Source of the DNA: Pocillopora verrucosa | Taxonomy: Eukaryota > Cnidaria > Anthozoa > Scleractinia > Pocilloporidae | Direction: 5' to 3' | DNA length: 64,000 nt | NCBI RefSeq assembly: GCF_036669915.1 | Contig: NC_089318.1 | Coordinates: 21,999,558-22,063,557 of the forward strand | Shown here: positions 1,440 to 36,921 of the stretch, piece after piece | Numbering within the stretch: position 1 is the first letter of the stretch | How the letters are laid out: every line of letters begins with the position of its first letter | The notes under the pieces: model-generated | Database searches by the model: none | Seen by the model: only the letters and a program-made list of their open reading frames with translations | Told to the model about the DNA's origin: nothing | Program-made: the position numbers and the translations under genes

Positions 1440-2800
1440 GCTGTGATAAGTTTTTTTTTTTCAACAGCTCTGATTGGTACATTCGATCCTTGCTGTTCGC
1501 TCAGTAATATGCTCCCTCGGCGGTCCGCTGTCGCACGGCTCTCCTGTTGTTGTGTGTTTTTGAACGTGGGCATCCACGCCTCTGGAATTTTCTATTCCAC
1601 TATCCTTGTTGATGTTGTCAGGGTGAAGTCCCATATGAATGGCCTCTTTGACCCTGCGCGTGTAGTAATTAGGGTCACGATCAATAAACTTTACTTCGCT
1701 CCAGAATGGCTTGTGTCCGGTGTTGTGGGCGACCTCTGAAACTGCAGAGATCTCGGTACCGAGTCGAATGTCTTGATCATGCTTCTTAATTCTGTCTTGC
1801 ATAGGTCTTCCAGTCTTTCCGATGTATACCTTGCCGCATTCACAGGGAATCCTTTAAACTACGCCATCTTGCCAGTGTTTAGCCGGGTCGACCACGTCTT
1901 TTGGTCGTACTAACTGAGATCTTAGAGTAGTCTGCGACTTGAAAACAGCGCGTACGCCTTGTTGTTGTAGGCAACGGCGAAGCTGTTCGGACAGACCTTT
2001 CACATAGGTTTAAAACCGAAGTACTTTGAACTTGTTGGCGGGTTCGGCACTGTTGTTTGGTTTTCCCGGTCTTGGTAATTTTCTGCAAGAAAGAAAAGGA
2101 TAACCATTATAAACCAGAACAGATAACAGATGTTTTTTTCTCCTGGGAGATAACGGAGGATTTTGTTACGAGACGTTTGGTGCGCTCGTTAAGGCACTTA
2201 ACAATACCGCGTTTTACTGATTGAGGGTGGTATGAATCATACGCTAAGTATTGATCCGTGTGTGTGGGCTTCCCGTATACGCTGATGGTGAGGCGGGCCG
2301 TCAGGTTTTCTTAAAACTGCGGTGTCTAGGAAGGCGAGTTTGTCGTCTTTCTCTGTCTCCATGCTGAAGCAGATGGAAGGCTACTGATTGATTATATGCT
2401 GTAAGAAGTCATCCAGGATGGTAAAGGTATCGTCCGCGTAGCGTTTCCATATCCTAGGCTCGTAGGATCAACAGGCGGCCCAAGCTCACGTCCTCGAGAA
2501 AAAGCCAACGATTAATTCATGAACGCGTCACGCGTTGTGTGACTCGGTGTTAAGTTACGAGAGGAACCGTTGAAAATTTCAACACGTTCTAAGGAATAGT
2601 GGGGGAACGAAATATGGTCGATTTACAACGGTAAATATTTCGAATTATGTGCCTGTGTTAGGATGATGTAGTTATCGCCGTTCTTCGAAATTCTCCGTGT
2701 AGAGGTTAGCAATAACAGCGGAAACCGGACTCCCCATGGCGGCGCCGTCTTTTTGCTCGTAATCGATCCGTTATACTGGAAGTATGAGGATCTCATTAAT
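1440..2800 (-). mobile_element. Penelope-like element, decayed RT plus GIY-YIG endonuclease
   Basis: Read on the - strand from 2800 downwards, a reverse-transcriptase fragment appears: a DGAAMGSPVSAVIANLY block at about 2755-2700, then the catalytic YADD box at about 2430, then a KLAFLDTAVLRKPDG block at about 2340-2305 followed by VYGKPTHTDQYL. After a linker, the GIY-YIG nuclease follows at 1860-1460, with CECGKVYIGKTGRP and the downstream helix (YTRRVKEAI). This RT-then-GIY-YIG order is diagnostic of Penelope-like retroelements. Several frameshifts, a stop in place of the first GIY-YIG tyrosine, and about 180 foreign bases splitting the RT (about 2473-2655) show that it is dead. The boundaries are approximate. 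Confidence 0.88.
2473..2655. mobile_element. Non-RT insertion inside the Penelope-like RT
   Basis: Between the FEERR segment and the RIWKRYADD segment of the reverse transcriptase lie roughly 180 bases that do not continue the protein in any frame. They contain a GC-rich acgcgtcacgcg patch resembling the tcacgcaac ends of short repeats elsewhere in the window (22784, 46930, 63900). It is probably a small DNA element that landed in the retroelement. The exact ends are not resolved. Confidence 0.35.
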
Positions 2801-4816
2801 CAGTAAAACATTTAAGATAATGGGTTAATTTAGTGTCTCCTTCATCGAATCAAAAGTATAAATTATAATCATAGGATTTAACCTTGGTCATTGTTTGCAT
2901 TAATTGATCAAGTTTTTTTTTCTGTAATATTTTAATGACCTCGTTTGGAGTGTATAGACATGCCAGAAACCATATCCACCGTCACCTGCGCTGTCGATGG
3001 CATTGTGAGACGATTCCGATGCCGGTATTTCGCATCATGTCTTTGTGTTTCACTTAAAGGTGCGTGGTGTGAGTCAGCCTCCGAGAAGGTCGAGGATCAG
3101 TCATCGTTGCATCGCGGGGGGTGTTTTGTAGCCGAATGATCACCTTTACTGAACTGCTCAAGTGCGTCTTCCCCAAACTTTATTTCGTCCTAATTTTTTA
3201 AAATTGTGGACACGTTAGGTTTGGAGAAAGATTCAAGAATACTAACAGTACTGCTTTTAAGACTTTTATTGAAAAGGTCACCTCTGCACATCAAAAGTTT
3301 CACTTGTTGTTTGAATGTGGAGTTTATGGCTAAAAAATGATAGGTAAATAAAAACAATCATATCAAATTACGCCTTCAATCGAATAAGAGCCACCCATCC
3401 ACGGTCTTCCTTAGACTTAAATAAGCTGCCCGTGCATTTAACGCGACTCATTTATTATATCTCAGTTGGCTTTTAATACATTTTTAACTTGACAGTAGCA
3501 CCAGAATGTCGACCCGTACTTCAAATTTTATCATCAGTATAATACAGCGTAGTAATAAAAAATATGGTAAAAGCTACCACCGTCTTGAACATTGGAATAA
3601 TTGACACTTGAGGAAAGCAAAGTTTCTTTCCTTTATGTAAAATTCACCAAACTTTTAAACGAGCTCCTTTTCTCGATTTTCTTTAGAAGAACAAGTTATA
3701 CCTTAAACGAATTATTAATAGAAAGAGTCAGAGCTCCCTTAAGTTTGTCATCTTTTATGGACTTCAAACTCAAGCGTCATTCGCTAGCGAAGCTGACAAC
3801 TTCGTCGAATCAAAGAGGTCGAAATGGAAGACCATAGCGCGTGGTGATTTTCACTCAACTGTTGGACGATAAAGTGGTGTCTTGCGCTTTTCAAGTCAGA
3901 GGCCAGACCTAAGCGTGCTCTTAAATGGAAAAATTGATTCCGAGACCACTCGTTTGGTTTCAGAACCTTGAAACAGACATCTAATCCACGTCATCAACTA
4001 GGTTTCTGTTTCTTTTGTAATGGAATCCTGTGACGTGGAAGGGTTGCGCATCATCCCGACGAACTCTAAAAAATAAGTAACAAAGTGTCAAAACTGAGGA
4101 TTAAATTTTTATACTTTTGCAACTAACATAATGCGTTAATTTAATGGTCCAATCTAGCGGGAAAGCAAAGTACTTCCGGACTTTTTACTAGCTATCTGTT
4201 GACACTGACAGCTTCATACTACGCAAACCGACTCTGTAGAATAAAGGGTCTTGGGAGAAAAACTTTAAAATATAAATATTTTTGTTTATTTATTTGTTGG
4301 TAATTAAGCGACAAATTACACAATTTGACTCCCCCCTCCCCCCTCCCCCCCGCCCTTCAACTTATGTTTCCGAGAGTGGCCAAGAATTTCTCAAACAACT
4401 TGCAATAGATTTCAAGCAACAACTTTATTCGAGGAGGGAAATAATGGAATTAGGTCATTCTGTAATTCATGGGGTCTTGGAACTTGGAAAATTGTATGCA
4501 ATTTCCTTTCCTTATTTACTCATTTATTCATTACAGAGTCATGCAGGTCTGGTTTAAAAATCAAATTCCTTTGAAAGACTAAAAGATCCACCAGAATCTG
4601 GCCGCCATGTTAGTAGGTCGAGAGTAGCGAGAACTCATATCTGAGAGAAAAAAGCTGAAGGTTCAGAGGTAATTTTGCCGATTTCTTTCGAAATCTCTCG
4701 CGCGCGTCCTCTCACACGCTCGTTCCGTAACACCTTCGCGTGGCTTCTTCTGCGCGTCACGTTCCGCAAGCACGAGTGCTTGATTATATCTAATGTGGAG
4801 TATCAAAACTGATTCT
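2801..4816. other. Non-coding stretch, probably including the 3'UTR of the CUB gene
   Basis: No convincing exon is seen. A C-rich tract lies at 4329-4353. On the - strand an AATAAA complement (tttatt) lies at 4424-4429, about 390 bases beyond the CUB gene stop codon, and is a candidate polyadenylation signal for it. Confidence 0.4.
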
Positions 4817-7800
4817 TCACTTGCCTTCTGGAACATCCAACACGGTTTCTGGACCCAGGCCACTTAGCCCTTCGTCGCCATAACTTTTCCTTAAAATGTC
4901 TCCTATGTGACTCGCACTGAAAGAAATCGGAAATGAAAATTATTTGAAGAAAACGGTTTTTCTGTGATCCAAGGTGAGTTATTTTCTATAAAGAAAAAGC
5001 TGCGGGCACCGTTTTTGCACAAGTAAGGCATTGTGCTGCTAACTCTAGTTTCTTTAGAGAGAGTTTAACACCGTCACTTTTGTTTACGGCAAAAAGTTAG
5101 GAATTCTAATCGTAGTCTGACAGAGATGAAGCGGTCTACTGGCTGGCGCGTTAGACTCCAAGTCGAAAACGCTCAGTTCAAACCCCAGCCAGAACCACCG
5201 TGATGTGTTCTTTGGCGGAACACTTATTTGATCAACCAAATCTATGAATAGATAATGAAAAACTGTTCGAGAGCCTAATTAAATGATTTGGGAGTAACCC
5301 TTGACTGACTAGTAACCCATTTCAGAGGGATGGCAATACCTACAATCACATTATGCTTGAGAAACTGCGGAAAGTTTCGGAAGGATGGCAAGGCATTTGA
5401 AAGGCTGAATTCCCGTTTGTTGAATCCGTTTTTAACTTTCGCTTTTTGATTGGTTTCCATTGTTTGGATGACCACAATTATGGCAGGCCGTTGTACCGTA
5501 AAATGGGGAGGTATTTTCGACAAATGCTCAGTTTAGGTCTTTAGCGCCTCTCTATGTTGCCAGATTTGTCGCTTAGCGGTAAGTCTGTAGATATCTCTTA
5601 TTGTTCTTGATCAACACCACATGACAACAGTGTGATACAAAATTTGAGTAAATATCTTCGCAAGGCAATATAGTAATAGATCGATTAACTTTCTGTTATG
5701 AAACTTTTTAATGAAAAACAGTGACCCCGGGGAGTATGACAGGATGCTCGGTGTAGAGGGAAACCTACCAGCTGTATGGCGGCTCATCTAGGTCTGAATC
5801 CTTATCTAAATTTAGAAGAAAGTCTTCTAGATCAGGAAATATTCTGCGAATAAATAAAACCACAGATTTTTTTAAATTCTAGACACCAGCCAAATATAAG
5901 TTTTGTCAAAACTAAACCGTAAAACCAATTTGTCATCAGAATGACTAGAAGCTCAAATATGTGCACAATTGCTAAAATTGCGTTTATTAGTTGAACATAA
6001 ATTTTAAAGATTTTAATCTTTTTTCTCTCTCTCTTTTTTTTTTTTTGAGACTTACAGGCTTCTATCTGGAATGTCCTCTGATGAAGAGTCCGTGTAATTT
6101 TCACTATCATAGAATAGAACAAAACACACTTTAGCTTGCAAAATGACATCTTGTACCGCTCAGATGAGCCGCACTGACCTATGAGGAACTGAAAACTCAT
6201 CAGGCACCATAATTGTGACTATATAACTTAGTACATACTCTCGTCAACTCACTTATTATCATGAATGAAAGTGATCCTCGCAGTAATGTGCACTACTTAG
6301 GCAGTAGTGAAAATAAGGCCTGAAAAAAATTCAGGCCTGTACGGCATTTGAACCCATGACCTCTGCGATACTGGTGCAGCGCTCTACCAACTGAGCTAAC
6401 AAGCCAACTGGGAGCTGGTCATGATGTTGGTTCCAAATAAACCCGTGAAGTGATGAAATAAACGGTTAAGAATATATGAAAGTCATATATTTGAACTGCG
6501 GATAAAGACGTGAATGAAAGTGATCCTCGCAGTAATGTGCACTACTTAGGCATTTCATTCACGTCTTTATCCGCAGTTCAAATATATGACTTTCATATAT
6601 TCTTAACCTTTCACTTATTATCAGTAACGGATATTGAACACTAGTTGAGGGCCACACTCACAAAAATTTTAGAAAGCTAAATTTTCGTTTGTACCTCCGC
6701 TAGGCTTTGACTTTGAGTGGTATAGAAATAGGGTGGGTAAAAGGGATGAGGGAATGTCAATGGAACCTCCCTTAGACTCGCCAGTGACGAAGCACGTCAC
6801 AAAGCGTTATAGTTTCTCTACAGTTTTCTTGCGCTGGAAGCTAGATAAGCGGAAGAAACTCACCCAAAGTCGTTCCAACGCGGCCCACTACTGTCTTCAT
6901 TTTCGTGGTATGCACCTTGGTCCGGCATCGCCGCCTGCAAGTCCGGTGATTCCTCCACGAGCACAGGGTCCTCATCCTTATGAAAACTGCGTGATGCGCC
7001 AGTGATAGAGGGTGGATGACAATAGAATAGAAATGGGCCCGTGAGATGTACACGTATATGTCAAACTTATTTTCTTTCATGCAAACTATCAAAAACGAAA
7101 TACAGCATCACTTTTGGTGAACCTTTTGGTTTTTTTTTTCGAATGGAAGAGGATATGCTTTACTGTGATTTCAAAGTTTCTACCTGGAAGTTCTAGAAGG
7201 CGAATCCACTGCAAAGTCTGTATCTTCACTCGGCTGCCTAACAAGAATAGCTGGGATCGGTAATCTCCTGCAAAGAGACAATTTTAAAATTAGGTCACTT
7301 GTATGATATGCTAAGAAGGAAAAGAAGGAGATGATGTAACCTCGTCAACCATAAGAGTTGACGAGGTTACGAGAGTTTCCGAGACCAACCTGCTCGGAGC
7401 GTAACGAAGCAAAATCAATTAAAAATCGCTGCAAAGCTTAAAGTCGGCGACTGGAAATTAAACTTTTTTACCTTGCAGGTTTCACAGTATCGTCTGTTTC
7501 TTCTTTGCTATTGTCATCATCTTCCTCTGGTTCGTCGTGAATTTCTTCAATTCTGAACAAAAAAGAAAAAAGAAAAGGGAATTATCACTTCTCTCAGATC
7601 CTCAAAGCTGAATGGTCGTATATTTGCATAATTTTCCAGACGGTAGAAATACAAATACCCAGGTATCTAACGCGCAAGCTTTATCAAGAAATGAGGTACC
7701 GCATAGCCAGATTCCATAACAGAATAGCGGATTTTGCTGGAATAAAGCGGGCAACTCCGAAAGAGCATGTTTGACCCAGGGAGCCAATCAGATCACAGGA

Positions 7801-10800
7801 TTGACTTCATCTAGCCTGACCAAGCCAGCAATAATTATGACGAAGACTGGCTGACGACCTATGGTAAGTATTCCCCTGAAATGTGGTAAATTGCCACTTA
7901 CTGTTCGGGTGAAATGGTCTCGTGCTGAACCAACGGATGTCCTGCTTCTTCATCGATGAATGATACTCGCTTGGAAGCTCTTTTGGACGGGGAACCAGAA
8001 CCCTTGGTCTGACTTTCACTGTAAAGCAAAAATACAAAGCAAAATATAGTATGATAAAATGAAATGATATATAAATTGTGAATAAAAATTGATTAAGAAA
8101 GACTCGCAGGCAACGAGATATTAGTCTTTCTGCTGACAATGCTTTTACAATTAAAAAACGTCTTTGGATCGAGTTGCGTAAAAGTAGAGGCAACAATAAA
8201 GAAAGCAGAAGCAATCAATGCGATCCCGCGAAGAAAAAAAACGCAAACTTCTTGAAGCTCAGGAAACAAGAGTATTTAAGTCGCGATCATTTCAGTTTTG
8301 CACCTTATTGGTCGAGAGCGCGGTGTGAGTTTTCTAGACCTGATCACTGAGCACAGTGAAGCAAAAGCATAACTAGTTTATGTCAATTGTTACCTTTCTT
8401 TTCCCTCCCCAAACATATTAACCAAAGCATCCCTCAGCAACAGAGAGGCTGGGCGAGAACTGGGTCTCGAACCACCTCCAGTGGTAGCCACGCCCGGTGA
8501 CAGGTACGGGCCTTTGCCAGTCGACGACTTTGTCAGAGGCACAGTCTCCTCCGCGTACGAGGATGGACGGGAGGGCCTAGGAGTTCGTACGCTGAAATGG
8601 GAATGTAATGAGTGTCAATGTTTTGGTCGCTCTCAGGCTAGAGGAAACCTGTTTTGGTTAAAAATAAATAAATTTTGCGAAGCATGACAACTATTGTGGA
8701 GGTAAACAGTCGTTTCGCCTTCGAGTCAATTAGCCAACGATAAATTTGCTAACGGTTTAGGTCGGATCGCCATTCTAGAGAGCTGTGATTCCTCACTGTA
8801 TGTAAAGGTTCCTTCCGGGGAAAGCTCCCTTAATGTATGGAATTTAATTTCAGTACTCGTCCAGCACAAAGTACTCAAGTGAAATGTCCGGTGAAAACTT
8901 TCAGTCCCGGTTGTTTGAAAGCTGGACTGACAAGTTTGAGCAGTGGGCTTCGCATTCACTTTTCTAGCACTTTTAAAACGTTATATTTGCCACAAATAAG
9001 CGGACCCCTGCTGACGTGTACAGTTTGAGAAAAAATAAGGCCGTTTGTTTACCCTTCTGCTAACTCCAGAAGTCTTCCCGCAAACGATATTTTCTTATAT
9101 CCTCCAACCATGGGACTGGGTCTGCAGAGTAAATGAAAAGAAACTATGAGTTGATATCAGATCTGAATATGAGTACGTCCTTTTTTATTTCCGTTTTCAA
9201 GAAAGGATTTATTAAGGTGATTATTCTTTGGATCCCTATGCTTTGACTGGAAAATTTTATTTATTATTTTTAGTGAAATGGGTAACTCGTGGACGATCAA
9301 GGAGATGTTTGCATTTGCACGACATATCCATGAGGACACGTACCGTAAAGCCTCAGATTTTTCCGCCAGGGAAGTCAGTGTCAGGCGTCATACACGTGAC
9401 CTTGGATGGAGGTGGAGCACTCAACGGGTATGCGTCCAGGGTCCTACGTATTCTTGGGAGGAGGGGGAGGGGGGGTATGACAGGTTTACAGTTACAGAGC
9501 CCTTATTAGCCTAAACTGTTATTAGTGTTCGGTTAGTTAAGTCTTAATCAGTTCTCCGCTGTATTTGAAACACTTTAGAAAAAAATGTGATCAGAAGTGA
9601 GGTGTTTTTCGATAGCCTCGTAATTCAACTCCAGGTATGTTTGTGACTTACCTTCCTGCATTAGGGTTAGAAGACTGGCCTTTCCAGGTCTTTGTCATCT
9701 CATTATAGAGATTACCTTTACTGCAACAGAAAAGAGAACTTTGTTCAGAGCAAAAACACTTTCCACTCTTCCGGTCAGTAACCTGATAAACCGAAACCGA
9801 GTGAGAATTGACCACTCGCGTTTCTCCGCGCATGAGGTTGTTCACATGCTTTTTATTAACTTGGAGTTCTCATTGTATGATTACCGCTCTCAAATGAAAA
9901 GTTTTTTATGAAGGAGCCTTCGCTGGTTGAGTCCCACTCAGTATTTAAAAATAGTAGCGTCAGTGTTACCTAATGTTGTGCATCGTTCTCTTCTGCCGCT
10001 TTTTGGCTGCACTTTTCTTTGCGTAGGATTCATACCTTAAAAAAATGACACAAACATGTGATCACGCTGAAAATTAAGGATGGCATTATATCGTGGTATA
10101 GAAAACTTATTAAAGTTCGTTTATCAGTGTTCGAAAAATCGAGAAATGAAAGAAATTTCGTTGAAAAGTTAAGCCCTTTTGTTGTTGAAACCCTGTCGCA
10201 CAACTTCTTCTGGAAAAATGTTAATTCAATTTCAGTTAATTACAATCAAAGTATAAACCTTTTTACTGTGCTCTTTTGAACGACATTAGACTGGCTGAAA
10301 GTACGGAAAAGATTCTTGTCATCAGTTACTCTAGTACAATAGCCCCAAAATTCCAAACGAATGCCCTCCCTCCGGACCGTAGTACTATATTACCAAAGCT
10401 TTCCTCAGATTTCACGGCATGAATTAGCAAGGATCAAAGGTTTTCCCCTTGGACCGCAGAATACAAGTTCATTGTGGATTACCCCTCAGTATTTCATTTT
10501 GTTTCCCTGATAAATATTCAGAAGTGAACGCGAACTTATAGTTATCTCGACCGACATGTTGACCCTACTAGTGATCAAGCACAACTGACCTGTTGTGCTC
10601 TTCCGAGTTAAACTTGTAATTCCACCAAGCAATACCAGCGACAACAATGACAAATATCATCACAACAGGTACAGATGGTCCAAGGACTATAATGTCTGGG
10701 ACTTTCTCTTCGACTACCTTCTGTTCCTTAGCCAAAACGGTATGAACCGGTGTTGTCCAAGCACTCCCCGCTCCAGTTGAACTGACTGGCAATGTTCTTC

Positions 10801-13800
10801 TGGGTAACGGAGTCTGAACACCAGTGAGTTCTGTCGGTATTCGTGTTTCTGGTGTAACTTGCAAAACAATTTCCGATGAAGAGTTTATCGGCGCTTTGCT
10901 TGTAAATGTGGGCAAAGGAATACTGAAACTCGACACGTTTAGATTTGAAGACGAGCCAGATGTTGTTGTGACAACGGTTTGATTAACAGATGCTCCAGAT
11001 ACGCCCATCGTTGGAGCAGGTGCTAGTGTATGAAGGGTTTTATAATGAAGTTCGAACCCAGTCTCTTCGCCAGTTGAGTCAGAAACGAATCGAATTCTGA
11101 CCCCAGACATCAAATAAAGAATCTTGTCCGGAGGGCGATTACCGTCACAATATTTCGTGTTGAATCCTGCATTACTAGACGCAGAGCCAAGTTCGCTTAT
11201 TTGGACAAAGTCACAATTGCATTTAATCCCTCCACACTGCTTGGAACTTGATTGGATGTTAAACGATGAAAACCGTAAAGAAACATTCGCTTTTTCCGGG
11301 GGCGTTATAATCCATGTGCAGGAAGAGTTGGCTGGATATGGTCCCCGAAAATTTGGACTTGTTATGGTTCCTTCATCGTCGATAAGTAGCTCTATGCTCT
11401 GACAAGCAATTGGTAACGATCCTAGAATTTAGAGAGTTTACTGAGTCACCAACAATGTAAACAATGGACCAGCTGACTCACCAACCACTAACCAACGGAT
11501 ATAAGTCTACCGGACCAACCGAATGACCGACAACCCGACTGACCGACTCACCGATCGACCGACTAACTGAGTGACCAACAAAATGACCAACAACCCGTCC
11601 GACCGACGCACCGATCGACTGACCCACCGACTAACCGACTGACCGACCGAATGCCCGGATGACCGACCGACTGACTGACCGGCCGACTGAGCGACCGACA
11701 AACCAGCCAACCTGCCGTTGTCAGGCAAACGAGCTTCCACCCCCCCCCCCCCCCCAACCAACATGGCGGGAACTTTCTAAAAACTTACTATGAAGAAATC
11801 CTTGTTAGAGGCCATTCTACGCAGTATTTTACCCAGAAAATGTAAAATTATATTGTTGTATCTTATTTTCAGAAGTTTGGAATCAAAATATTTTTTTTGA
11901 CTTGGAGTCGAATGGAGATACGCATAAATTACGACTTTTAAAAAGTAAGATTCCTCTAGGCAAACTCTTCCAGATAGCCATCAGATTTTTTCTTAATTTG
12001 ATTTTAATCGGATCCCACAAATTTTAAAACTTTTTTATAGTCACGATTTTCTTAAATCGAAACACAATAGCTTTTTCTATAAATTTTTCAAGTTTTTGTA
12101 CAATGATGTAACTCTTATCACTGAGCTGCTTGCTGCGATGTAGAATATTAACAAAGCATCAAACCGCAATGAAAGCTTTTGTCATGATTTGTTTGTACAC
12201 TGTAACTAATTAAGGCGATTTTTTTTCATCTTCTTCCCTGTTGAACATGCCCTTTTCTTTCGTTATGTGTTTGTCACTGTTGCAAATAATTATTTTTGTT
12301 TTTTTAATTCTGTTGTTTTTCGTATGTTACTTTTCTGTTATATCTTTTGTTCACTAATGTGTTTCTTGATTCGACGATAGTTTTAACCAGCCGAATTGCG
12401 TGACATAACGTTTATAAATAGTAACGAGAACAGCAGGCGATCAGGAGATTTGCCAATGGGGTGAGAGGGGGAACATAGCAATGTATTGTTCGTACCCCGA
12501 GGGAAACAAGATTCCAATTCCTGTTTGCCGAATTGCCCCTAATTCTCTCCGCCCCGAAAATATTCGCAGCCAATTTACAATCGGAAACAATAAAAGTTAT
12601 CCCGGTATATTGTTCATTAAAGAAACTATTAGCTAAAACAATATATACTAAATGTAAATATAAAAATACGGAAAATCGGCCTCATGCACCTGCAAATTTA
12701 AACCATACATTACAAGCGACATGCAAGGACCTATATTTTGCGGAAACGGAGTTATATTGTTTGCAAATTTTGCGCAAGTATTTATGATATTGTGTCTTAG
12801 AGGAATATATTTCCATATAGGCGATTCAAACTTACGTAGTGATTCAAAATTCTTTTTAAAAACAAAGAAAAAGGGAAAACCGGTTATGCCTTACCGCAAA
12901 AGATGTTTACAAACTTGTTTGCAAAAAACATCAACGCGTCGTGAAGCGCATTATATACCTTGTTCAAACAGATTAAAAATGTCACTTTGGACAGGGAAAA
13001 AATAAAACGATTTATCCTGCTGACTGCCTAATTCAATATTAAAATTTTCAAAGTATTGTTTTTTTAAGTCCTAAAAAAGCGAGTGAAATATTTACAAAAC
13101 ATCTAGGAAAGAACAATCTCGGATTATGGCGGTAAATTACTTCAATCTGTTTTCGAATTAGCTGTTTTTCCAATCCGAATAAGTTAGTTAATCTAGGCAT
13201 TGAAGAATAAATCCCTTTATCTGTCGGAAAACGAAGGAGAACTAAATAAAAAACCGACAAAATCTACGCACTTAAAAACAGCCCGAGTTCTTGTTGACTC
13301 TAAAATTAGTTTACCGGGAAATCGTGGTTTAGATATCTCTGTCTTAACTTCACTAAGAGAAATCGCGGCAATGTGATCTAATCTCCTACGAATTATCTGC
13401 GCGGCTGTTCGTGTTTGATTATCCCGCATAATTCAGGGTAAGTAATATATTTGTGGCGTTTCGATGGAATTAAATAGATATGTCTAACCTACGCAGACAA
13501 AAGTTGCTGCGAAAGTTGAATAATCTAATTTTAATGAACAGACCGGGGCCGTCGGTGTTAGGAAAAGTTCAAAGCTTGTGTATTGTGCAAACCCGCCGCC
13601 GAGGTCATTACGAATAAACGCTTATCTTATAAGCTTCTTTTCCCAGTTTGCTCCCTCTAAGACAGTTCGGCTAATCCGTAAAAATAACAAGTAAATTCCT
13701 AATTATTTGACGGAGGTGAAATACCCTGAATCTTTTTTAGGGATTCGACAAGTTACAGCGGATGTAGAATTTTGAGACGTCCATTTACGCATATCCTTGA

Positions 13801-13949
13801 AAAAATAAAGTAAGAAACCTCCTAATTCCGCGAGATAATATTAAAAGGAAACGTTACTTACCGGCCTCTCGTGATGTTCTAGGTCTTGCTGTGACCAGCT
13901 GAAGCGCATAAGTAAAAGTGGTAAACCATTTAAAACATGTGAACCTCAT
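4817..13949 (-). CDS. Single-pass membrane protein: signal peptide, CUB domain, TM, long cytoplasmic tail with RVxF-like motifs
   Basis: Exons (- strand): 13949-13862, 11421-10590, 10035-9970, 9720-9652, 9121-9053, 8591-8394, 8018-7902, 7552-7472, 7267-7184, 6986-6864, 5843-5769, 4916-4817; 1902 nt, 633 residues, all with AG/GT borders and matching phases. Residues 1-21 look like a signal peptide. About 36-145 form a CUB domain (SPNFRGPYPANSSCTWII start, six or more cysteines, YCDGN near the end). A Ser/Thr/Pro-rich stalk follows, then a TM helix at about 274-295 (VPVVMIFVIVVAGIAWW). The roughly 338-residue cytoplasmic tail is rich in Ser, Pro and Arg and carries KKISF (361-365) and KRVSF (457-461) followed by acidic residues. 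It ends with an acidic segment and a short C-terminus. Nine consecutive exons are multiples of three with phase-2 borders. I do not recognise the family. The start is the only ATG giving a signal peptide in frame. Exons skipped in some isoforms cannot be excluded. Confidence 0.82.
5125..5215 (+). repeat. Possible tRNA-derived SINE fragment
   Basis: The segment has a tRNA-like layout: a gttagactccaagtcgaa stretch resembling an anticodon arm, then cagttcaaaccccagcc resembling a B box with T-stem. It lies in the last intron of the CUB gene. The A box is weak, so this is a tentative call. Confidence 0.35.
6300..6464 (-). repeat. tRNA-derived SINE
   Basis: On the - strand a tRNA-like head runs from about 6406 to 6334, with a clear A box (TTAGCTCAGTTGGTAGAGCG), an anticodon-arm-like middle and a B box (GGGTTCAAATGCC). 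It is followed by a tail with paired ggcctga/tcaggcc. A second diverged copy with the same head and the same flanking tail is at 21003-21204. It lies in an intron of the CUB gene. A functional tRNA is unlikely because the acceptor stem is poor and the copies share a non-tRNA tail. Confidence 0.75.
6465..6607. repeat. Perfect 55-bp inverted repeat at the SINE tail
   Basis: Arms 6465-6519 and 6553-6607 are exact reverse complements separated by a 33-bp spacer. Part of the arm plus spacer (gtgatcctcgcagtaatg) repeats the SINE tail at 6270-6302. The same sequence occurs as a single, non-inverted copy near 21003-21080. Confidence 0.85.
11480..11757. repeat. Degenerate GACC/GACT tandem repeat with poly-C end
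   Basis: About 220 bases are built from short units such as gaccgact, gaccaacc and gaccgatc, ending in a poly-C run at about 11741-11755. It lies in intron 1 of the CUB gene. Repetitive Ser/Val/Arg ORFs through it on the - strand are low-complexity translation, not genes. Confidence 0.8.
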
Positions 13950-20504: not shown

Positions 20505-23500
20505 ATGAAACTCTTATGTAGGAACAACTCATCACTTCTTCCGTTTGCGAGAAATTGTCTTTATCTTCCTTCAGTTTTTGTACAAAAAAAATGGGAGAGC
20601 TGTGGCAGGGAAATTAGCACTGACGAGGTACACGTTTTTCCTCGAAGCTTACGTTATGTAAGATTTTGGTTGTAGAAACATCACAAAGTTTGCACAGTAA
20701 ATTTGATTACTTTATTTCAGGTCTCTAGAAGAGCCTCTGCCTCTTCTTCTCGTGGCAAGTTTAACTTGGTTGGTCCTCGACATCACGGCTCAAACATACG
20801 AAAGATAATCTTCGCAAAATTGAAAAATGAATCAACCAAAGTAAGCGCAATATGATTTTAACCTACCCGTACTTAAGCAAAAGACGGCACATTCGTGGAA
20901 TATTGGGAGAAAACGTTGAATATTTAAAAATGAAACGTTCAGTTGGTTTTATGAAACATTTGTGGGTTTACTAGCCCAATAAACGATATATTAATTGACG
21001 ACTGTAAATATATGTGAAAATCATATATGTGAACTGCGGTTTAAGAAATTAAAATGAAAGTGATCCTTGCTGTAATGAGCACTACCCAAGCAGTAATGAA
21101 AATTAGGCCTGAAAGAAATTCAGGCCTGTACAGGATTCAAACCCATGACCTCTGCGATACTGATGCAGTGCTTTGCCAACTGAGCTACATGTAACATGCC
21201 AACTGGAATAATTAACCTTTTTGCTCCCAAGATGTCATCTTGCCAGTATAACTTCTCTGGGGATTATAGAGATGTGCATTCTCTGATTGGTCAAGGATTG
21301 CATCAGTGTATTGATATTGTAAAGCAGATGTTATCTACTGATGGCTCTAGGGAGGAAAATCCAAGGATTGAAAGGGAAATATATATTTACGTGATCATGT
21401 ATCTTAAATTGTTTGTTTTCCTTGGCAGTTTGTGCCTGCTTTTTTTGCATGACTGTCTTCATTAGTGAAAACACACAGAATAAAGGTAACCAAAGCAAGA
21501 AAACTATGTAATATATGTTTTTTTTTCTTTCAGGAGAGATACTTCAGAGAACAACAGCAAGAATTAAACACTTGGAATCAGAATTTTTGGGGGAAACAAA
21601 ATGAAAAATTCAATAAGGTTGGATATGTTATTTTCTATTTCTTGAAAAATAGATAAAGATGGAAATATGGAAATGATTCATGTTTGACACAAGAGATCCA
21701 AATTCTATTCTCATAGACCATTCTAGACCAAAGACTGATAGCACAAAAATACAGCACAACTATAAACTACATGTAGATTTGATATTGTAAATTATCTACC
21801 ATAAAGAGTTTGAAAGCTGACATTTCAAGCATAAACTAATGCTCAAAATGAAAACTTTGAAACTCTTTATAAGGGCCACTATGTTTTATCAACTCAATTG
21901 ATAATACCAAAGTACCTTGTTATACTCCTCCACTGATGCAGCACCATAGTTTTTTTAGAAACTTACTCCTTTATGCAGGTAGATTTGTAGGTTTCAAACA
22001 CTGGTTGGACAGACCTTTCCTGATACCTCATTACACATGTATGTGACTCCTTACTCAATTAAGTATTCAATGTGAAGAGTCACTTTACCATTTCTCATCG
22101 CTTTGAAAAAAATATGTCTGATGCAATGGCTTCGAATGTGTTAGTTGTTAGGTGTGGACTAGAAACACTTCTATAGTCGCAAACGCTAATCACTCGTATT
22201 TCAAACTTTACTAGAACAAACTTGACACATTGTTGAATACGGTAACTGAAAATGACAAAATTACAAACACGCGAATGAGCATAAAATAACTTACATCGTA
22301 TGAGTGAAAGTACTGGAAAACGACAAAGCGAGATAAACAAGGATACTTACAAGACGAATGTGACCAACCCAAAGACGAAAACATGAAACCCAGAGCTAGA
22401 TATGTAACGGTAATTTTCACAAACTAGACAACTAACCAAATAAATTACGCGCAACCAATATATATACGATATGCAAATAAATATAACAAGTACAAACTGG
22501 TAACTGACAAAGGACACTAATGGAAGACGAGAAAATAAACACCTAACACGAAACTATGAAACACCAACACTAACAAAAAATGATAATCCAAATTCTTGCG
22601 CCTACATTCCGGCCCCTTAAATACGAAGATCTAAATCCAAGTATTTACCAGCAAAACACTAAAAGGCGCAAACTTTACAGAGCTAATTGAACTTAGACGA
22701 TTTTTACTTAATGTTCAGACGCCTAACAGAGTCAACAAAGTACTATAAAGTGTCAATTTAAATCTTTCTCCTCAAAGAAAAGTCACGCAATCTTGGTAAT
22801 CACACGATTAAGGAAAGTCAATGAATTTTTCCTTCCACTTGTTCAATTGATTCCAGAAGACATAGTTTACTGATAGGGCGCTCCAAAGTTGATGTCTTGG
22901 TTTTAACCTTGACACGGCGGACAAATCCATATTTGTCAGGAAAAACCTCTGTAATCCGACCAATTGCCCACGCATTCCTTGGCAAATTTTCGTCAACCAC
23001 GATAACAGTGTCCCCCACGGCAAAGTTTTTCTTTGGTCGAAACCATTTCTGACGTGACTGTAGCAGAGGGAGATATTCTCTCTTCCAGCGACCCCAGAAA
23101 ACATCAGCCAAATATTGTACTTGCCGCCATCTTCTCCTGGAGTATGTGTCGCTCTTTAAGAACAAGCCTGGAGGAAGAGGTGTCTCGCTGCGAAGCAGGA
23201 GAAGGTGGTTCGGTGATAGTGGTTCCAAATCCTTTGGATCGTCAGAAACTGTGGTCAGAGGTCTTCCATTGATAATGCTCTCACATTCACACAACAAGGT
23301 CTGAAGACTCTCATCATCGAGACTTTGTTCTTTAACCAGGGCACCCAGAACCTTGCGTGTAGATCTAATTAGCCTCTCCCAGACACCACCATGATGCGAG
23401 GCTCCGGGTGGGTTAAAAACCCATTTGATGCTTTTCTGCAGAAGGGCGTCATGAATTTTAGCTTGATTCCAGCTGTCAATCATGACACGAAGCTCCCTTT

Positions 23501-26500
23501 CACCTCCTACGAAATTTGAACCATTGTCGGAGCGAATTTCTTTAACTTGACCTCTACGAGCGATAAAACGTCTGAGTGCGTGAATAAAAGAGTCAGTGTC
23601 CAGTGAGTGACACACCTCCAGATGAACAGCTCGCAGTGCCAAACAAGTGAAGATTGCACCATAACGTTTGACCATGCTCCTCTTTTGACGAACAAGAAAG
23701 GGACCAAAATAATCTATCCCCACGCACGTGAAGGGGGGTTGATCTGGTGTAACTCGAGGCCGAGGCAGATTTGCCATCTTTTGTTCTCCAACGGGACCTT
23801 GTCGTCGTTTGCAATCAAAGCAGGATGAAAGCACACTTCTAACAGTAGAGTTGGCACGAATCAACCAGAAACGTTCGCGCAACAGAGCCAGGACATATTC
23901 TCTACCAGAATGGCCGCTTTTCTGGTGAAAGTGGTTCACAAGCAGACGAGCTAGATGAGAATCTTTAGGAATGATAATCTGATGCTTAGAGTCGTCTGAT
24001 AGGGTAGCCCTGCTAAGGCGCCCGCCAACACGAAGAAGACCATCGGTCAAGATCGGATCTAATCTTGCAAGTGCACTTGACCCCTTGACGCATTTACCTC
24101 CCTTAACGGCTTCTAATTCTTCTGCAAAGGTGAGATTCTGCTCGAACTTGATAATCTCTTTTCCGGCTTCTTCCAACTCTGCGTTTGTCACCAATTTCGC
24201 TCCAGATGCGTCAGCAGTATCCAAACAATTCTCCTTTGACACTTTTCTCCTCATCACAAATCTTCTCTGGCAGCGAAGACACAGCGCGATAAACTTCAAC
24301 AATTTGAACCATGAAGAGAACCGTTGGATGATAGAAACGATACTTGAATCTTTACTCGCGTGAACAACAAAAGATTTCGGCTCTCGTTTCACCTCTGGGT
24401 CATCCTCTTCCAGTTTTACGCCGCACAGAGGGGACCTTTCCCATTCAGATTTATGTTTCAGCAGAAACGCCGGCCCCTTTATCCAGCGGTCGTTCTTAGT
24501 GAAGGACTCCGCAGTAACTCCTCGTGAAGCATCATCTGCAGGATTAGACTTGGAGTCGATGTGTCTCCACTGTGAGGGACTGGAATCCTCTCTAATGAGG
24601 GCCACACGGTTGGCAACATAAGTGTGGAAGCGCTTGGATTCGTTTCCAATGTAACGCAACACGGTCATACTATCGGACCAGAAAGAGATTGCATCAATCG
24701 GAATCTCCAACTCCTTCTTCAATACTTTGTTCAAACGAATGGACATAGTGGCGGCCGCTAACTCTAAACGTGGGATAGTGACCTGTTTTAAAGGGGCGAG
24801 ACGAGATTTTCCGAGAAGGAAAGAACAGTTGATCTGGCCATCGGAGTCAACCTGTCGAAGATACGAAACAGCTCCAAAGGCCGACTGAGAGGCATCACAG
24901 AAATGGTGAATCTCACTTGACACGATTTTACCAGATCCACGCCTAACGCACCGGCCCATTGACATCTGGGAAAGTTTCGGTAGACCATTTAGCCACACAC
25001 GCCAACGAGATAGGTAGTCGCTGGGAATCTCATCATCCCAACCCAAACTCTTTCTGCACAGATCCTGAAGGAGCAGTTTTGCCGGAAGGATGAAAGGCGC
25101 TGCCATACCGAGAGGATCGTAAACTGAACTCACCACGGAAAGGATACCACGCCTGGTACAAGGTTTCTCCTTAATGTTCACTTTGAAACCAAATGTATCT
25201 GTCTCGACAAACCAGGATACACCTAGGGCTCTCTCTGCAGGAAGCACGTCGTTATCAAGATCCAGATCTTTAACACCCTTCGCTCTAGCTTCTACAGGAA
25301 TGGATTCCAAGACTTCGCGGTCATTGCTGATCCATTTAGTCAAATTGAAACCTCCCCTCAGCATTAGCCGACGAAGTTCTTCCACATGCTTTATTGCAAC
25401 AGTCGCTGAAGGTAAGGACTTCAGGCAGTCGTCAACGTAGAAATTCTTCAAGACAGTACTAACCACGTCAGGGGAAAACTCGTGCCTATGATCTTCGGCA
25501 TTCCGTCGCATGGCAAAGTTAGCACAACTGGGAGACGAAACCGCACCGAACAGATGTACGGTCATCCGATACTCTTCTAATTCCTTGGAGAAGTCACCAC
25601 GGGGCCACCAAAGGAACCGTAGGAGGTCTCTATCTTCTTCTGGGACACGCACCTGATGGAACATAGATTGAACGTCACCCATGACTGCGACTGGCTCCTG
25701 CCGGAAACGGATCAGCACGCCAACCAGATTATTGGTTAAGTCAGGACCTTGAAACAGCTCATCATTCAGGGAAGTTCCTTGAGAATGGGCTGAGCAATCG
25801 AAAACGACACGTATTTTATCCGGTTTCTTATGATGATAAACGCCGTGGTGCGGGATAAACCACACCTTACCATCTGATCTCTCCAGGACATCCAGGGGAA
25901 CCTTTTCTGCAAAACCGTCACCGATCACCTTCTCAAGACAAGCAACATAGTCCTCGCGAAACTTCACATCTTTGGAGAATTTACGTTTAAGATAGAGAGC
26001 ACGGCGTTCTGCTTGACTCCGGTTTGCTGGCATCTGCAAGTTGAGGTCCCTTAACGGTAGAGAAACCTGATAATGACCATCTTCACACTGCATAACTGAA
26101 TCCTCTACAATGTTCATGAACTTTAAGTCATCCCTTGACATGCTTAAACCATCGGAAAGAGTGGCATCTGCAAAATCAGCACATGCTATACACATAGGAT
26201 GAGTCTCCTTACAGTTAACGAAGAAACTAGAAGATGGGACAAACTTTTGCTTTCTTCCAGTTGGGCCATTGATAACCCAGCCAAGATCAACTCTAGTTGC
26301 ATATGGACCCCCATCAGAGGCAGGGACAACTTCTCTCGGTTGTAGGGCTTCAGGTACATTTGCACCAATCAATAGATCCACCTCGGAATTCAATTCTGCT
26401 AGGTATACATAGCCTTGGAGGTGCGGCCATCGCTCCACATCCTCCTGTTTCGGGATCTCGTCTTTCACTACAGGCATAGAAGGTCGGGAAAGAACTTCTG

Positions 26501-29500
26501 GCAAGGAAATGACAACGTTCTCGTCTAGATCAGCCACTTCCAGGTTCGTAACAACGAGACTGTCCACATCGTTGCAGCTATCCATGGTGGTTAGCTTGAG
26601 TCTCATTTCCTTGCCGCAGACTCTCAGACGTCTCAACAGATTAGCCGAGCAAAAGGTGGTGTTAGATCCATTATCCAGCAACGCATAGGTCTCCACGGAC
26701 CGAGGACTTCCTTTGACTTTGACCTTCACAGCAACAATGGGCAATGCAGTCACGGAACCCTCCATTGTGGTTAGGCCACAAAAGTGATCAGCTCTGATCT
26801 TCTCAGTACTGGACTGGTTGTTCTCGCTCTGAGGTCCATCCTTACCACGGTCGGACGCAACAATAGCTTCTGGTGCACTTACATGCATTACAGTAGCGTG
26901 TCTCTTATTACAGTGAATACAGGGCTTCCTTTTGTGACAACTTCTAGACTGATGGCCTCCACCTAAGCACGAAAAGCATAGCCTCTGCTTCATGACAAAC
27001 TCCTGACGATCTGTAGGAGGTACTTTGGCGAAACTGGAACATTCGGTGAGATTGTGATCTGCATTACAAAACAGACAGTTCTTCTTAGAAGAATGAACTG
27101 CACTCAACACATCAGCAGATGAATTGAGAGCAGATTTCGTCTCGGAAATCGTGACGAGGCTTAGCTGTTTTCCACCGGGTCTCTCAGACTTCGATCTCGA
27201 ACCCCTATCCTTGCTGTTCTTCTTCTCCTTTTCCAAACAAGGAAGCTTGCCAAAAACTGGATTGGACAAGGTGCGAGCTTTCTGTTCAACGAAGAGTGAA
27301 ATGTCATCAATGCAGACATCTCTCGCTTCCGAGTTGAGGATCCGATCAGCGTTGTCCCGCCAACTGGCTTGCAACTTCGGGGGAAGCCTCTCAATAATCT
27401 TCCGCATGCTATCCGGACTTTCGAACTTGCTGGAATAGCCGATAGCCTTAAGAGTGTTTGTACAGCTAGAGAGCAAAACGGCAAAGCCTTCTAGGGCGTC
27501 TGCATCTTCAGCTTTGATGACTGGACCATTAGTGACTTTATCCACATATGCCATAGCGATTTTGTGCTTCTGTCCAAATTTGCTCTCTAAGAGTTTCTTT
27601 GCCTTTACGTACCCATCTTCGGCTTTCATGTAGAGGCAACTTTGTACCAACTCTTGAGCTCTGCCAGCTGTGTGCTGTTCGAGGTAATAGAGTCTCCCAG
27701 CGTAATCTAGTTCTCTAGTTTCGATTACGGTCTCGAACGCGCGAATGAAAACACAGTAATGTAAAGGGTCTCCACTGAACACAGGTACACGTCTCCTGGG
27801 TAACAAGTTCCTTTGCTGCTGTTTCACGAACTCTTCCATTACTCGGTTCTGCTGGACGAGAATGCCATAGGCCTGGTCGCTCAGACCTGAGTTGCCAGAG
27901 CTTGAACTTGAATCACTCACAGCACCCTTATGATCTTTAACCGGGTTACTTGACTTCACAGACAATTTCTCTTTCTTATCGGCAGGTACAAATGACTCAC
28001 GTTTTGAACCACCAGTCCTTGACTTTTCAGTGATGGAGGATACGACTGAAACGGGACAACGAGGATCCCTAGAGGCCACGTTGATAGGCGCGAAATTACC
28101 CGCTTCAGCTTGAGCGTAAGCTTCTTCTCTAGCCACCGCTTTAGCGTACTCAGTTTTGAGGTTTAATTCATCTTTCTTCAACTGCAGGTCGTACTCTTGC
28201 CTCTTGAGGCGTAGCTCCGATTCCTGAAGCGAATGGCGGTGTTTCAAAGCGTGTGCCTCCGCTCGAAGTTCCGCGATGCGAGCTGCCTCTTTGGCTCTTG
28301 CAGCAGATATGGAGCTCGTTTTAGAAAAGTGACTCGTTCTCGATCCACACATGGATGGTCTAGACTTGCTACGAACCTCGGACCCAATTTGAGAAGCGCT
28401 GTCGTCAGGCGTTAACAGGTTATCTTGAAGCCTGGCTTCCGTGACACGTAACCAATCATTGACCGTACGGCAGAAAAAATCTAAACTGCTTTCAATGTCG
28501 GCGAAATAGAGGTCTGATTCTTGTCTCTGACTTTCCTCAAACAGAGCTACATTATACGCGTCATGAGCCTCGGTAAATCTTCGAAATAGCGACGTGATTT
28601 CCGACAGCTTTACTTTCACCGTCCCCAAATTATTTTCATCCGTTAAAAGACTATCGATCTCTCGACGCTTGGACGTTAACGAAGACAACACTCCTCCTCT
28701 CCGCTTTCTGAGTTCACGGATGCGTTCAAGAGAGATTCCTTCTTGATCCAAAGAGGTATTCGGTTTACGAGTACGTGAACCGTTTTCGGCAGGTTGGCCG
28801 TTCTTCCCGGCCGAATAAGACAGGTAGACATCAGAACCGTTGCGAGACATCGTCATAAACTTCCAATAAACCAGATTCGTCTTTTACAAAATATAGTCGC
28901 AAACGCTAATCACTCGTATTTCAAACTTTACTAGAACAAACTTGACACATTGTTGAATACGGTAACTGAAAATGACAAAATTACAAACACGCGAATGAGC
29001 ATAAAATAACTTACATCGTATGAGTGAAAGTACTGGAAAACGACAAAGCGAGATAAACAAGGATACTTACAAGACGAATGTGACCAACCCAAAGACGAAA
29101 ACATGAAACCCAGAGCTAGATATGTAACGGTAATTTTCACAAACTAGACAACTAACCAAATAAATTACGCGCAACCAATATATATACGATATGCAAATAA
29201 ATATAACAAGTACAAACTGGTAACTGACAAAGGACACTAATGGAAGACGAGAAAATAAACACCTAACACGAAACTATGAAACACCAACACTAACAAAAAA
29301 TGATAATCCAAATTCTTGCGCCTACAACTTCCTTTCATTATCTCTGTACTCATCCACCCACTGAAGAAAATAAATTATTGGATATTTTAAAAATTGTTTG
29401 TTAAACGAATCAAGGTAAAGACATTAAATTTCTTGTACATATTACTCTATTTAGAATGTGTGACAGAATTGAGAGCTTTGAGGCTATTTAGTACATTTTT

Positions 29501-34815: not shown

Positions 34816-36537
34816 CTAGCGAATCACATTTCCGTTGACCACGTCATCATGAAGAACACTTTGGGTCATCTCCTTTAGAGCATTTCCAAACTCTTCTGTA
34901 ATGATCTGTGGATCTGGTAGCACACTGACATCACTTTGCACTCCAATAATAACTCGGCCAGCATAGGTATAGATGGACAGCCCAATTCCAATGTTGTCTC
35001 TCTGAGGAGGCCAGAATGTTGTGTACTTGATAGGTCGACCAGCCACTGAGAGGGCATGCTGGGGACCAGGTACATTTGATAAAACACAACTTGACTTCTC
35101 AGTGATTACAGTGTTTATTCTCTTAATCATAAATTCAGGGAAAAATTCATTAGACAGCATCATCACACAGGCTGTGGCTAATGGTTCACCAGAGTATTTG
35201 CATTCATCCATACGTGCTTTGGTCTCTTGTAATTGATTCAGAACACCTTCAGTCCCAACTGCAAGCCTAAGGAAGACCAGAGAAAACATGTTTTCGAAGC
35301 TGGGTTCTTTCTTGGGGGCTGAAAGACGGACATCTACTGGAATTGATGCCTTGAAGTCTGGAGGGTTTTCCACACCCTTTCTCTGGAAGCACCTTCTGAT
35401 TGCACGTGAGAGGCAAGACATCAAGACATCATTGACAGTTGTGCCTGTGGCTGCTTTGATTTGCTTGATCAATTTGAAATCAAATTCTTCATTCCAGGTA
35501 ACTTTTTTGATGCCACTCAGCTTTGGCCCATGTAGAATGGATTGGTCAGGAAAGCCAAAAACTAGCCTAAGCATTGAATATGCCATTCTTAATATTGCTT
35601 TGGCCATGAGAGGTACTTGAGAAGTTGATGACGTAAACTTCTTAGTCTCCTTCTCATTTTTTGATTGATCCGGTAGCTGATTCATAAGGAACCTTGTCAA
35701 GGACACACCATCTGCAACACTGTGAGACATCCTGAAGACTGCCGCGAAATCCTTGTCACCATAATTTGTAGGAACACAGCAGAAATACCAAGGGGAAACT
35801 CCTTCTTTAAAGGGTTCATTACTCAGCTTAGAAACGATCCCTTCTAACTCCTCTCTGGAAGAGGGCACTTCACCATCCCACTTAAACACATGGTTTTCAA
35901 TGCGAAAAGATCTGTCTTCCTGAAAAAAGTACTGAAAGTAGCCTGGGCGAATGCAACAACGGGCCCTCGGATAAAGTAAGGTTCCGTCCGACTTCTTAGC
36001 GTTCACCATGCGATCTAAAACAGCTTGTCGGAAATCTCGAAGAGCTTTCTCGAAGTCCGTTTTGTTCTCCGCGCAGTAAAATCCGGTAATCGCTAGACGA
36101 TTCACGTCACTTTTCTGTTGCCAAAGCGCATCCAGGCCGCTCAGGTGAAGGTCGCCAGATGTCCAGTAGACGAGATATCGTTCGATCACCTTTAGACTGT
36201 AGTATACCACAATTAGTGGAACCAAGGGCAGAACGGACGTGAAGAGAAGCACGTAGGACAAGAAACAAACTATGACGAACCATAGGAATTTCAGCAAGGA
36301 CAGGATTCTAGAGCCCTCCTCTCTTCGAGCTCCTAACTTGGGCGAGACGTTCTGTGCGGCAGAACTGTTTGCCACCATTTTGGTTGGGTTACCGTTCATT
36401 TTACTGCTACAGTAGCCATTCTTCACAGTTGTTGATGCATCCATTGCCGTGAGTGAACTATTCAGTAACACCACTGCGCGAAAACTCAACATTTTCTTAG
36501 CCACCTGAGGTAGATCAAAGGTTCCTGATGAAAACAT
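34816..36537 (-). CDS. WS/DGAT-family O-acyltransferase (wax ester synthase/diacylglycerol acyltransferase-like)
   Basis: Intronless ORF of 573 residues. Two hydrophobic segments at about 80-118 should anchor it in a membrane, probably the ER. The acyltransferase half carries SHSVADG at 271-277, the equivalent of the family HHxxxDG catalytic motif with the first His replaced by Ser and the second, catalytic His kept. The C-terminal WS/DGAT domain shows NVPGP and a GIGLSIYTYAGRV block typical of the family. Such enzymes esterify fatty alcohols or diacylglycerol with acyl-CoA, for storage lipids or wax esters. A second in-frame Met at residue 32 is an alternative start. The lack of introns in an intron-rich neighbourhood suggests a retrocopy or an ancestrally intronless gene. 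It faces AP5M1 across 384 bp. Confidence 0.85.
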   Translation of the reverse strand: MFSSGTFDLPQVAKKMLSFRAVVLLNSSLTAMDASTTVKNGYCSSKMNGNPTKMVANSSAAQNVSPKLGARREEGSRILSLLKFLWFVIVCFLSYVLLFTSVLPLVPLIVVYYSLKVIERYLVYWTSGDLHLSGLDALWQQKSDVNRLAITGFYCAENKTDFEKALRDFRQAVLDRMVNAKKSDGTLLYPRARCCIRPGYFQYFFQEDRSFRIENHVFKWDGEVPSSREELEGIVSKLSNEPFKEGVSPWYFCCVPTNYGDKDFAAVFRMSHSVADGVSLTRFLMNQLPDQSKNEKETKKFTSSTSQVPLMAKAILRMAYSMLRLVFGFPDQSILHGPKLSGIKKVTWNEEFDFKLIKQIKAATGTTVNDVLMSCLSRAIRRCFQRKGVENPPDFKASIPVDVRLSAPKKEPSFENMFSLVFLRLAVGTEGVLNQLQETKARMDECKYSGEPLATACVMMLSNEFFPEFMIKRINTVITEKSSCVLSNVPGPQHALSVAGRPIKYTTFWPPQRDNIGIGLSIYTYAGRVIIGVQSDVSVLPDPQIITEEFGNALKEMTQSVLHDDVVNGNVIR

Positions 36538-36921
36538 AACCTGTGATTGGTCAGTTAGAATTCACGTGGTAATAATTTCGTCACGCACAAGTCACAGACA
36601 TTCACGTGTGTGAGGGATGTATCCTGTTTTGGCTCTATATTTGACTCATCAAATGCTTGTATGGAGCCTATGCCAAGTCAGATTTGCATTTGATTCCAGC
36701 CTTATTTTTTTTCAATAATTTTGGCGGACCAAAACGTTTAACCGAGTCCTCTTTCGACTAAACAGGAAGTGAACTATGTTCGAAAGCCACCTTCACTGAC
36801 CTTGCTTGACAAAGGACTGGGTATAAGGTTTCTATTTTGAACAAAATGGCGGACGGACTTTGCTGTCTATCTGTCGGCTAAGAAAATTAAGCATGGCTGG
36901 AGTTGAATAGAGATTAGCTCA
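36538..36921. promoter_or_regulatory. Divergent promoter, acyltransferase / AP5M1
   Basis: 384 bp between opposed start codons. It contains an inverted CCAAT (gattgg) at about 36544 and a YY1-like aaaatggcgga at about 36843-36853. No TATA box is obvious. Confidence 0.45.

Follow-up and report, generated by a model that had tools for sequence, protein, structure and literature searches.

A 64,000-nucleotide stretch of the Pocillopora verrucosa genome (the window; assembly GCF_036669915.1, contig NC_089318.1, positions 21,999,558 to 22,063,557 of the forward strand) carries a minus-strand gene encoding a CUB-domain membrane protein with a long cytoplasmic tail. All coordinates below are window positions, and all exons lie on the minus strand. 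Pfam, hydropathy and spliced homologues bear out the architecture described in a sequence-only reading of the region: a signal peptide, one CUB domain, a Ser/Thr-rich stalk, one transmembrane (TM) helix and a long tail. Judged from the spliced homologous sequences that support this architecture, the gene is a real receptor gene. From stony corals to sea anemones, short motifs of its tail retain their residues, and the surrounding tail does not.

As first read, the gene comprised 12 exons between 13949 and 4817, which do join as proposed, at GT-AG sites in one frame, with every exon from 3 to 12 starting in phase 2. The length of 633 residues given for the protein does not follow from them, since the joined exons yield 624 amino acids, and mapping the homologue P0001 back onto the window (tblastn) revealed two omissions, an exon at 5843-5769 and a last exon beginning at 4065. 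The first of these encodes IFPDLEDFLLNLDKDSDLDEPPYS, matches P0001 at 100% over 24 residues and has splice sites. The exon that follows it, exon 13 (4825-4916), has a GC donor (GAAG/GCAAGT) at its 4825 end and opens a GC-AG intron. Because exon 13 ends there and the homologues continue past it, the TGA at 4817 that had been taken as the stop is intronic. The corrected gene has 14 exons, encodes 669 amino acids and ends at 3998. In exon 14 (3998-4065), two bases more than the homologues' frame requires, at 3998-4003, make the window protein end in KETET rather than KETDLVDDVD; allelic variation or a faulty assembly may account for them. DLVDDVD or a near variant ends 10 of the 11 coral-type proteins that reach the C-terminal region. 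The eleventh, the Stylophora database protein P0003, ends at a false VPEGK at the same GC-AG intron, and the corrected model shows the C-terminus that it has lost.

P0001 itself (674 amino acids, 177 member sequences, longest contig 3366 bases) aligns over its full length, with the same start and exon order, and differs from the corrected window protein at 12 residues, not counting the altered C-terminal end. A contig of 3366 bases is too short for a gene of ~10 kb, which suggests a spliced RNA. The AlphaFold model of P0001 has a mean pLDDT of 46 (<50 around residues 595-599) and was used to distinguish helix from disorder only.

Exon 1 (13862-13949) contains the start codon shared with P0001, the signal peptide (model helix 2-19) and ARPRTSREA. 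By the joined exons and the P0001 mapping, exon 2 (10590-11421) encodes the CUB domain, the stalk and the TM helix together. The CUB domain (PF00431, E 6.2e-18, 65.6 bits against a curated cut-off of 21.4) spans residues 42-156 (11042-11386) and is built of strands in the P0001 model; its closest relatives by sequence among the 42 PDB entries listed (E up to 1) are the CUB parts of cubilin, neuropilin-2 and MASP-1. CUB domains usually have four cysteines; this one has six, through an added CGGxKCxCD pattern that recurs in 28 of the 39 proteins fetched. The 11 proteins without the pattern include three CUB-less ones, fragments that start after it and two weak, unrelated CUB matches. The CUB-less proteins (P0006, P0007 and P0008) have the signal peptide joined to the stalk, reflecting either alternative splicing or a CUB-less lineage. 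A single TM stretch stands out in the Kyte-Doolittle profile (peak 273-291), and together with invariant alignment columns it places the helix at about residues 273-296 (10622-10693).

No domain other than CUB scored above its cut-off in the Pfam search of the window protein, and no astacin protease domain was among the matches. The Stylophora protein P0003 is annotated as 'Tolloid-like protein 2', with which the CUB domain is held in common; given the lack of a protease domain in the window protein, the tolloid name does not fit. Receptors of the NETO/neuropilin type have at least two CUB domains plus further ectodomain modules, whereas the window protein has one CUB and nothing else above cut-off.

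A protein homologue search returned 22 proteins, seven of them named, all from stony corals or sea anemones and from six species: Stylophora pistillata, Oculina patagonica, Actinia tenebrosa, Nematostella vectensis (two, P0019 and P0020), Exaiptasia diaphana and Actinostola sp. Over aligned columns the window protein is 98% identical to P0001 and 84% to the Stylophora protein (94% and 74% by BLASTP). With a tail-only profile and an E limit of 1, 33 proteins were recovered from the best 7995 word-sharing candidates scored, and none added a new name. A third search gave 10 proteins, comprising five already known, three anemone-like fragments (P0035-P0037) and two weak CUB matches; it missed coral members of its own query, so these searches cannot be taken as complete, nor do they prove that the protein is absent outside Hexacorallia. 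In the coral's own genome (353 Mb), one site matches the CUB-stalk-TM piece over its whole length (602 bits), and among the best 140 of 291 candidates scored the other 136 matches reach at most 56 bits; none extends past query residue 190, and the TM segment starts only at about residue 243. The receptor gene is single copy in this genome, which holds at least 150 CUB matches.

Motif tallies for the tail cover the 17 of 22 homologues that reach it (P0012, P0014, P0015, P0016 and P0018 end near the TM helix and were left out, and P0023-P0039 lie outside the tallies). Alignment A3 holds 14 of the 22, in nine coral and five anemone rows, leaving out P0003, P0007, P0012-P0016 and P0018. Conservation scores use seven of its coral rows (P0001, P0004, P0005, P0006, P0009, P0010, P0011), among which only P0004 (Oculina) is named, the others being taken as corals by similarity.

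The tail begins with a basic juxtamembrane stretch in exon 3 (9970-10035), with RYESY (residues 307-311) crossing the junction of exons 2 and 3. Exon 4 (9652-9720) encodes SKGNLYNEMTKTW, including an LYxxM motif at residues 333-337 (9710-9696) that is found in 16 of 17 tails, P0003 being without that exon; its x positions vary while Y and M are constant, and Y334 and M337 are invariant in all 14 aligned rows. In the low-confidence P0001 model a long helix runs from the TM segment through LYNEMTKTW, and three short helices (365-375, 423-435 and 595-602) fall on further conserved blocks, FAGRLLELAE, SLLLRDAL and LEDFLL. FAGRLLELAE lies in exon 5 (9053-9121) at 9084-9055. Exon 6 (8394-8591) encodes RTPRPSRPSS and, at residues 420-431 (8458-8423), SRPASLLLRDAL; the pattern SRPASx[LI]LRDAL occurs in 17 of 17 tails. 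Exon 7 (7902-8018) encodes SKRASKRVSFIDEE and is followed by exon 8 (7472-7552) with an acidic stretch, exon 9 (7184-7267) with IPAILVRQPS, and exons 10 (6864-6986) and 11 (6056-6103). The recovered exon 12 (5769-5843) encodes DLEDFLLNLD at residues 596-605 (5833-5804), present in 15 of 17 tails, the exceptions being P0013 (truncated) and P0020 (an isoform). Five anemone tails (P0017, P0019, P0020, P0021, P0022) have an extra SF[ED]xKLV block, resembling SFAGRLLELAE, that was not seen in coral-type tails.

The sequence-only reading had singled out two tail motifs that fit the RVxF consensus for binding protein phosphatase 1 (PP1), placing them correctly as KKISF at residues 361-365 (9096-9082, exon 5) and KRVSF at 457-461 (7972-7958, exon 7). 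The second is conserved in part of the homologues. KRVSF satisfies the strict form of RVxF, a pattern of five residues ([HKR][ACHKMNQRSTV]V[CHKNQRST][FW]), and also reads as a basophilic-kinase site. The strict form occurs in 12 of 17 tails (the others being P0010, P0013, which is truncated, P0019, P0020 and P0021), and in alignment A3 KRVSF is found in eight of nine coral rows (KGVSF in the other) and in Actinia and Actinostola. Between the seven coral-type sequences and these two anemones, KRVSF is 97% identical and the block SKRASKRVSF 87%, with 23% identity in the 12 residues before the block and 10% in the 12 after it; just 1.6% of 10-residue tail windows match its conservation. KRVSF thus forms a conservation island, which supports a functional motif in the coral, Actinia and Actinostola lineages. 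In the same comparison the block ranks behind LEDFLLNLD (100%) and SRPASLLLRDAL (90%) and ahead of FAGRLLELAE (80%) and LYNEMTKTW (56%). The model shows no predicted structure around RVSF, again at low confidence, and a PDB sequence search with the RVSF peptide found no match.

KKISF fares differently. All nine coral rows of A3 have KISF; the five anemone rows lack it, reading PRRTF, RDSSL, TKRSF or NKRSF there, and keep only the adjoining FAGRLLELAE helix; we rejected KKISF as a conserved second PP1 site, and the two-site version of PP1 recruitment is not supported. Several other candidates were set aside: RIRF lies in the CUB domain and is extracellular, RVTF lies in the stalk of P0002 and P0003, RPISF later in the Nematostella tail is unrelated, and DILR near the C-terminus mismatches the SILK-like pattern [GS]IL[RK].

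DLEDFLLNLD resembles the LD motifs of the paxillin family, whose consensus LDXLLXXL is known bound to the FAT domain of FAK and to alpha-parvin (PMC7703752, excerpt). LEDFLLNL is a near match that would form a short predicted helix (595-602, low confidence) in a mostly disordered tail; it differs from the paxillin family in having E for D and F for L, a single copy and a membrane receptor as its setting. An LD-like match arose in 0.2% of shuffled tails with a narrow pattern and in 6% with a loose one, both patterns having been written after the sequence was seen. The one match to the LD-like peptide in the PDB, galectin-1 (sequence E 0.0044, each stretch E 40), was read as chance, and a PDB search with the tail profile gave two matches, at E 0.41 and 3.5. 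By conservation scores of coral rows against all four anemones, the LD-like block leads (LEDFLLNLD 4.89, SRPASLLLRDAL 4.47, LYNEMTKTW 3.85, FAGRLLELAE 3.31, RVSF 1.81), and we regard its exon as a stronger lead than PP1 docking.

Candidate partners are encoded in the coral genome. Pieces of the PP1 catalytic subunit match at two loci, on contigs 2 and 7, at 80% or more and more weakly elsewhere (18 matches in all). The RVxF groove lies in the C-terminal part of the catalytic subunit, and this part of both loci is 94-98% identical to a PP1 query fragment, so that partner is available. LD-motif proteins are marked by binding to FAT, talin, parvin, vinculin or GIT, and a partial Focal_AT (FAT) match in the genome covers profile positions 69-130 of 133 at 89.7 bits.

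We consider the protein best read as a hexacoral type I receptor with a multi-motif scaffold tail, PP1 docking at KRVSF included, a tentative reading to which we assign a probability of roughly 0.45. The six-cysteine CUB domain on its Ser/Thr-rich stalk would bind an extracellular protein, and the long, mostly disordered tail would serve as the scaffold. Its helical motifs, chiefly the LD-like DLEDFLLNLD and SRPASxLLRDAL, may anchor the tail to cytoskeletal or adhesion proteins; KRVSF would dock PP1, which a basophilic kinase would switch off by phosphorylating the Ser of the motif. Taken alone, PP1 docking at the predicted KRVSF site is plausible, at a little short of an even chance. As a single-copy gene with short motifs that have been kept, the receptor is a tractable candidate for a hexacoral link between a receptor, a phosphatase and the adhesion machinery.

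Several observations count against this reading. Nematostella has NRISY at the KRVSF site, and isoform X2 of Exaiptasia has a gap there. When all four anemones are considered, 10% of tail windows equal or beat the RVSF block and 28% of tail positions outscore its centre; since KRVSF is also not universal, PP1 docking is not shown to be the tail's main function. SKRVSF starts with S and does not match the extended RVxF pattern [KR][KR][ACHKMNQRSTV]V[CHKNQRST][FW], and the simple pattern occurs in ~25% of all proteins (PMC4794898, excerpt). The caution that so short a motif can arise by chance is borne out for the simple pattern by shuffling of the P0001 tail (378 amino acids), which gave at least one simple RVxF in 18% of cases; two or more arose in 1.4%, and the strict form, uncommon by chance, in 1.6%. 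The LD resemblance departs from the consensus at the two residues named above, a PDB sequence search with the LD-like peptide found no paxillin, and the structure model is of low confidence. Finally, we infer the ligand, every binding partner of the motifs and the phospho-switch.

The points concerning RVSF also favour an explanation in which KRVSF serves just as a substrate of basophilic kinases, or arose by chance and was fixed by descent, and in which the helical motifs alone do the work of the tail, anchoring it to the cytoskeleton: over all four anemones RVSF ranks below the helical blocks, and it is degenerate in Nematostella and missing from the Exaiptasia isoform. That explanation has to accommodate near-identity of KRVSF between the seven coral-type sequences and Actinia and Actinostola amid flanks of 10-23%, a block that outdoes two of the helical ones in the same comparison, and a strict match with a shuffle probability of 0.016. 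We consider it unlikely.

Also doubtful, to a similar degree, is a CDCP1-style phosphotyrosine/phosphoserine scaffold; human CDCP1 is likewise a membrane protein with a CUB ectodomain and a motif-bearing tail. With kinase and SH2 patterns given their usual meanings, Src-type kinases would act on the juxtamembrane Tyr (anemones read RYEEI), LYxxM would recruit PI3-kinase, RxxS would recruit 14-3-3, and RVSF would be a mere kinase site. The fixed Y and M of LYxxM amid varying x positions fit this scheme, as do the tail's eight RxxS/T sites, where shuffles give 3.6 and only 1.8% of them reach as many. CDCP1 itself is a target of Src kinases, which phosphorylate it, and it binds SHP2 (PMC4395315, excerpt). 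Against it, YxxM occurs in 18% of shuffled tails, and L, Y, M and W are spaced on one face of a helix that, in the model, extends onward from the TM segment, so a structural role for Y and M is possible. The CDCP1 tail has immunoreceptor tyrosine-based activation motif (ITAM)-like YXXI/L sites (PMC4395315, excerpt), whereas just one of 11 tyrosines in the coral tail (YKKI) fits YxxI/L and there is no CDCP1-like pair. The V and F of KRVSF are conserved, and a kinase site alone needs neither. The coral receptor further differs from CDCP1 in its single CUB and in a long tail that bears LYxxM, RVSF and LD-like blocks. The CDCP1-type CUB domain (PF23665) matches it weakly, at 14.5 bits (E 0.026) with a cut-off of 27, and is listed for Nematostella P0019 and P0020.

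A bolder form of the scaffold reading, to which we give a low probability, is a hexacoral-specific receptor that combines PP1 and an LD-motif adhesion partner on one tail, with a kinase off switch at RVSF and loss of the motif by splicing, as in Exaiptasia X2; an extracellular CUB ligand would then steer a phosphatase to adhesion or cytoskeletal substrates. Shedding of the ectodomain, with the protein mainly an extracellular matrix component, for example of the coral skeleton, is very improbable: the skeletal matrix does include CUB proteins and, separately, transmembrane proteins represented by extracellular-side peptides only, yet its described CUB proteins lack a TM segment and have a threonine-rich part (PMC4890752, excerpt), the main text of PMC7115838 does not contain 'tolloid', no skeletal-matrix passage naming the receptor was found, and anemones, though they lack a skeleton, conserve the tail.

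A PP1-docking receptor, which the sequence-only reading presented as a novel signalling architecture, would not be new in kind, since RVxF-type sites are already on record for membrane receptors: mGluR7b (KSVTW) and mGluR1a (KSVSW) are reported to bind PP1 through such motifs (PMC8998116, excerpt). The coral receptor shares with them an RVxF-type motif in a cytoplasmic tail; they differ in being seven-helix receptors and in that their binding is reported. The PP1 regulatory subunits offer a second comparison, through the RRVSFA peptide crystallised with PP1 (PMC4794898, excerpt); the putative coral site has K for R, and no second PP1 motif is established in the tail. In the open-licence literature, no paper on this receptor was found by domain plus motif, by annotation name or by gene identifiers, and the excerpt of PMC8005653 contained nothing on PP1.

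Intron 10 contains, at 6262-6616, a 42-base direct repeat (6262 and 6511), a 64-base inverted repeat (6456-6519 and 6553-6616, 95%) and a predicted tRNA-Thr (AGT) at 6333-6405 on the minus strand, the sole tRNA call in the window; the segment resembles a mobile insertion that includes a tRNA or a piece derived from one. Elsewhere in the window, an uninterrupted 2021-residue frame of the Bel/Pao retroelement type lies at 22818-28883 on the minus strand, with Pao peptidase, DUF1759, DUF5641 and integrase zinc-binding matches above cut-off and RVT_1 and rve below. A fragment at 1461-1853 (minus strand) with a weak GIY-YIG match below cut-off is possibly a retroelement remnant. A single-frame 581-residue protein resembling wax ester synthase/diacylglycerol acyltransferase (WS_DGAT domains) is encoded at 34816-36561 on the minus strand, and an exon-like frame at 57636-58160 on the plus strand matches DUF4706.

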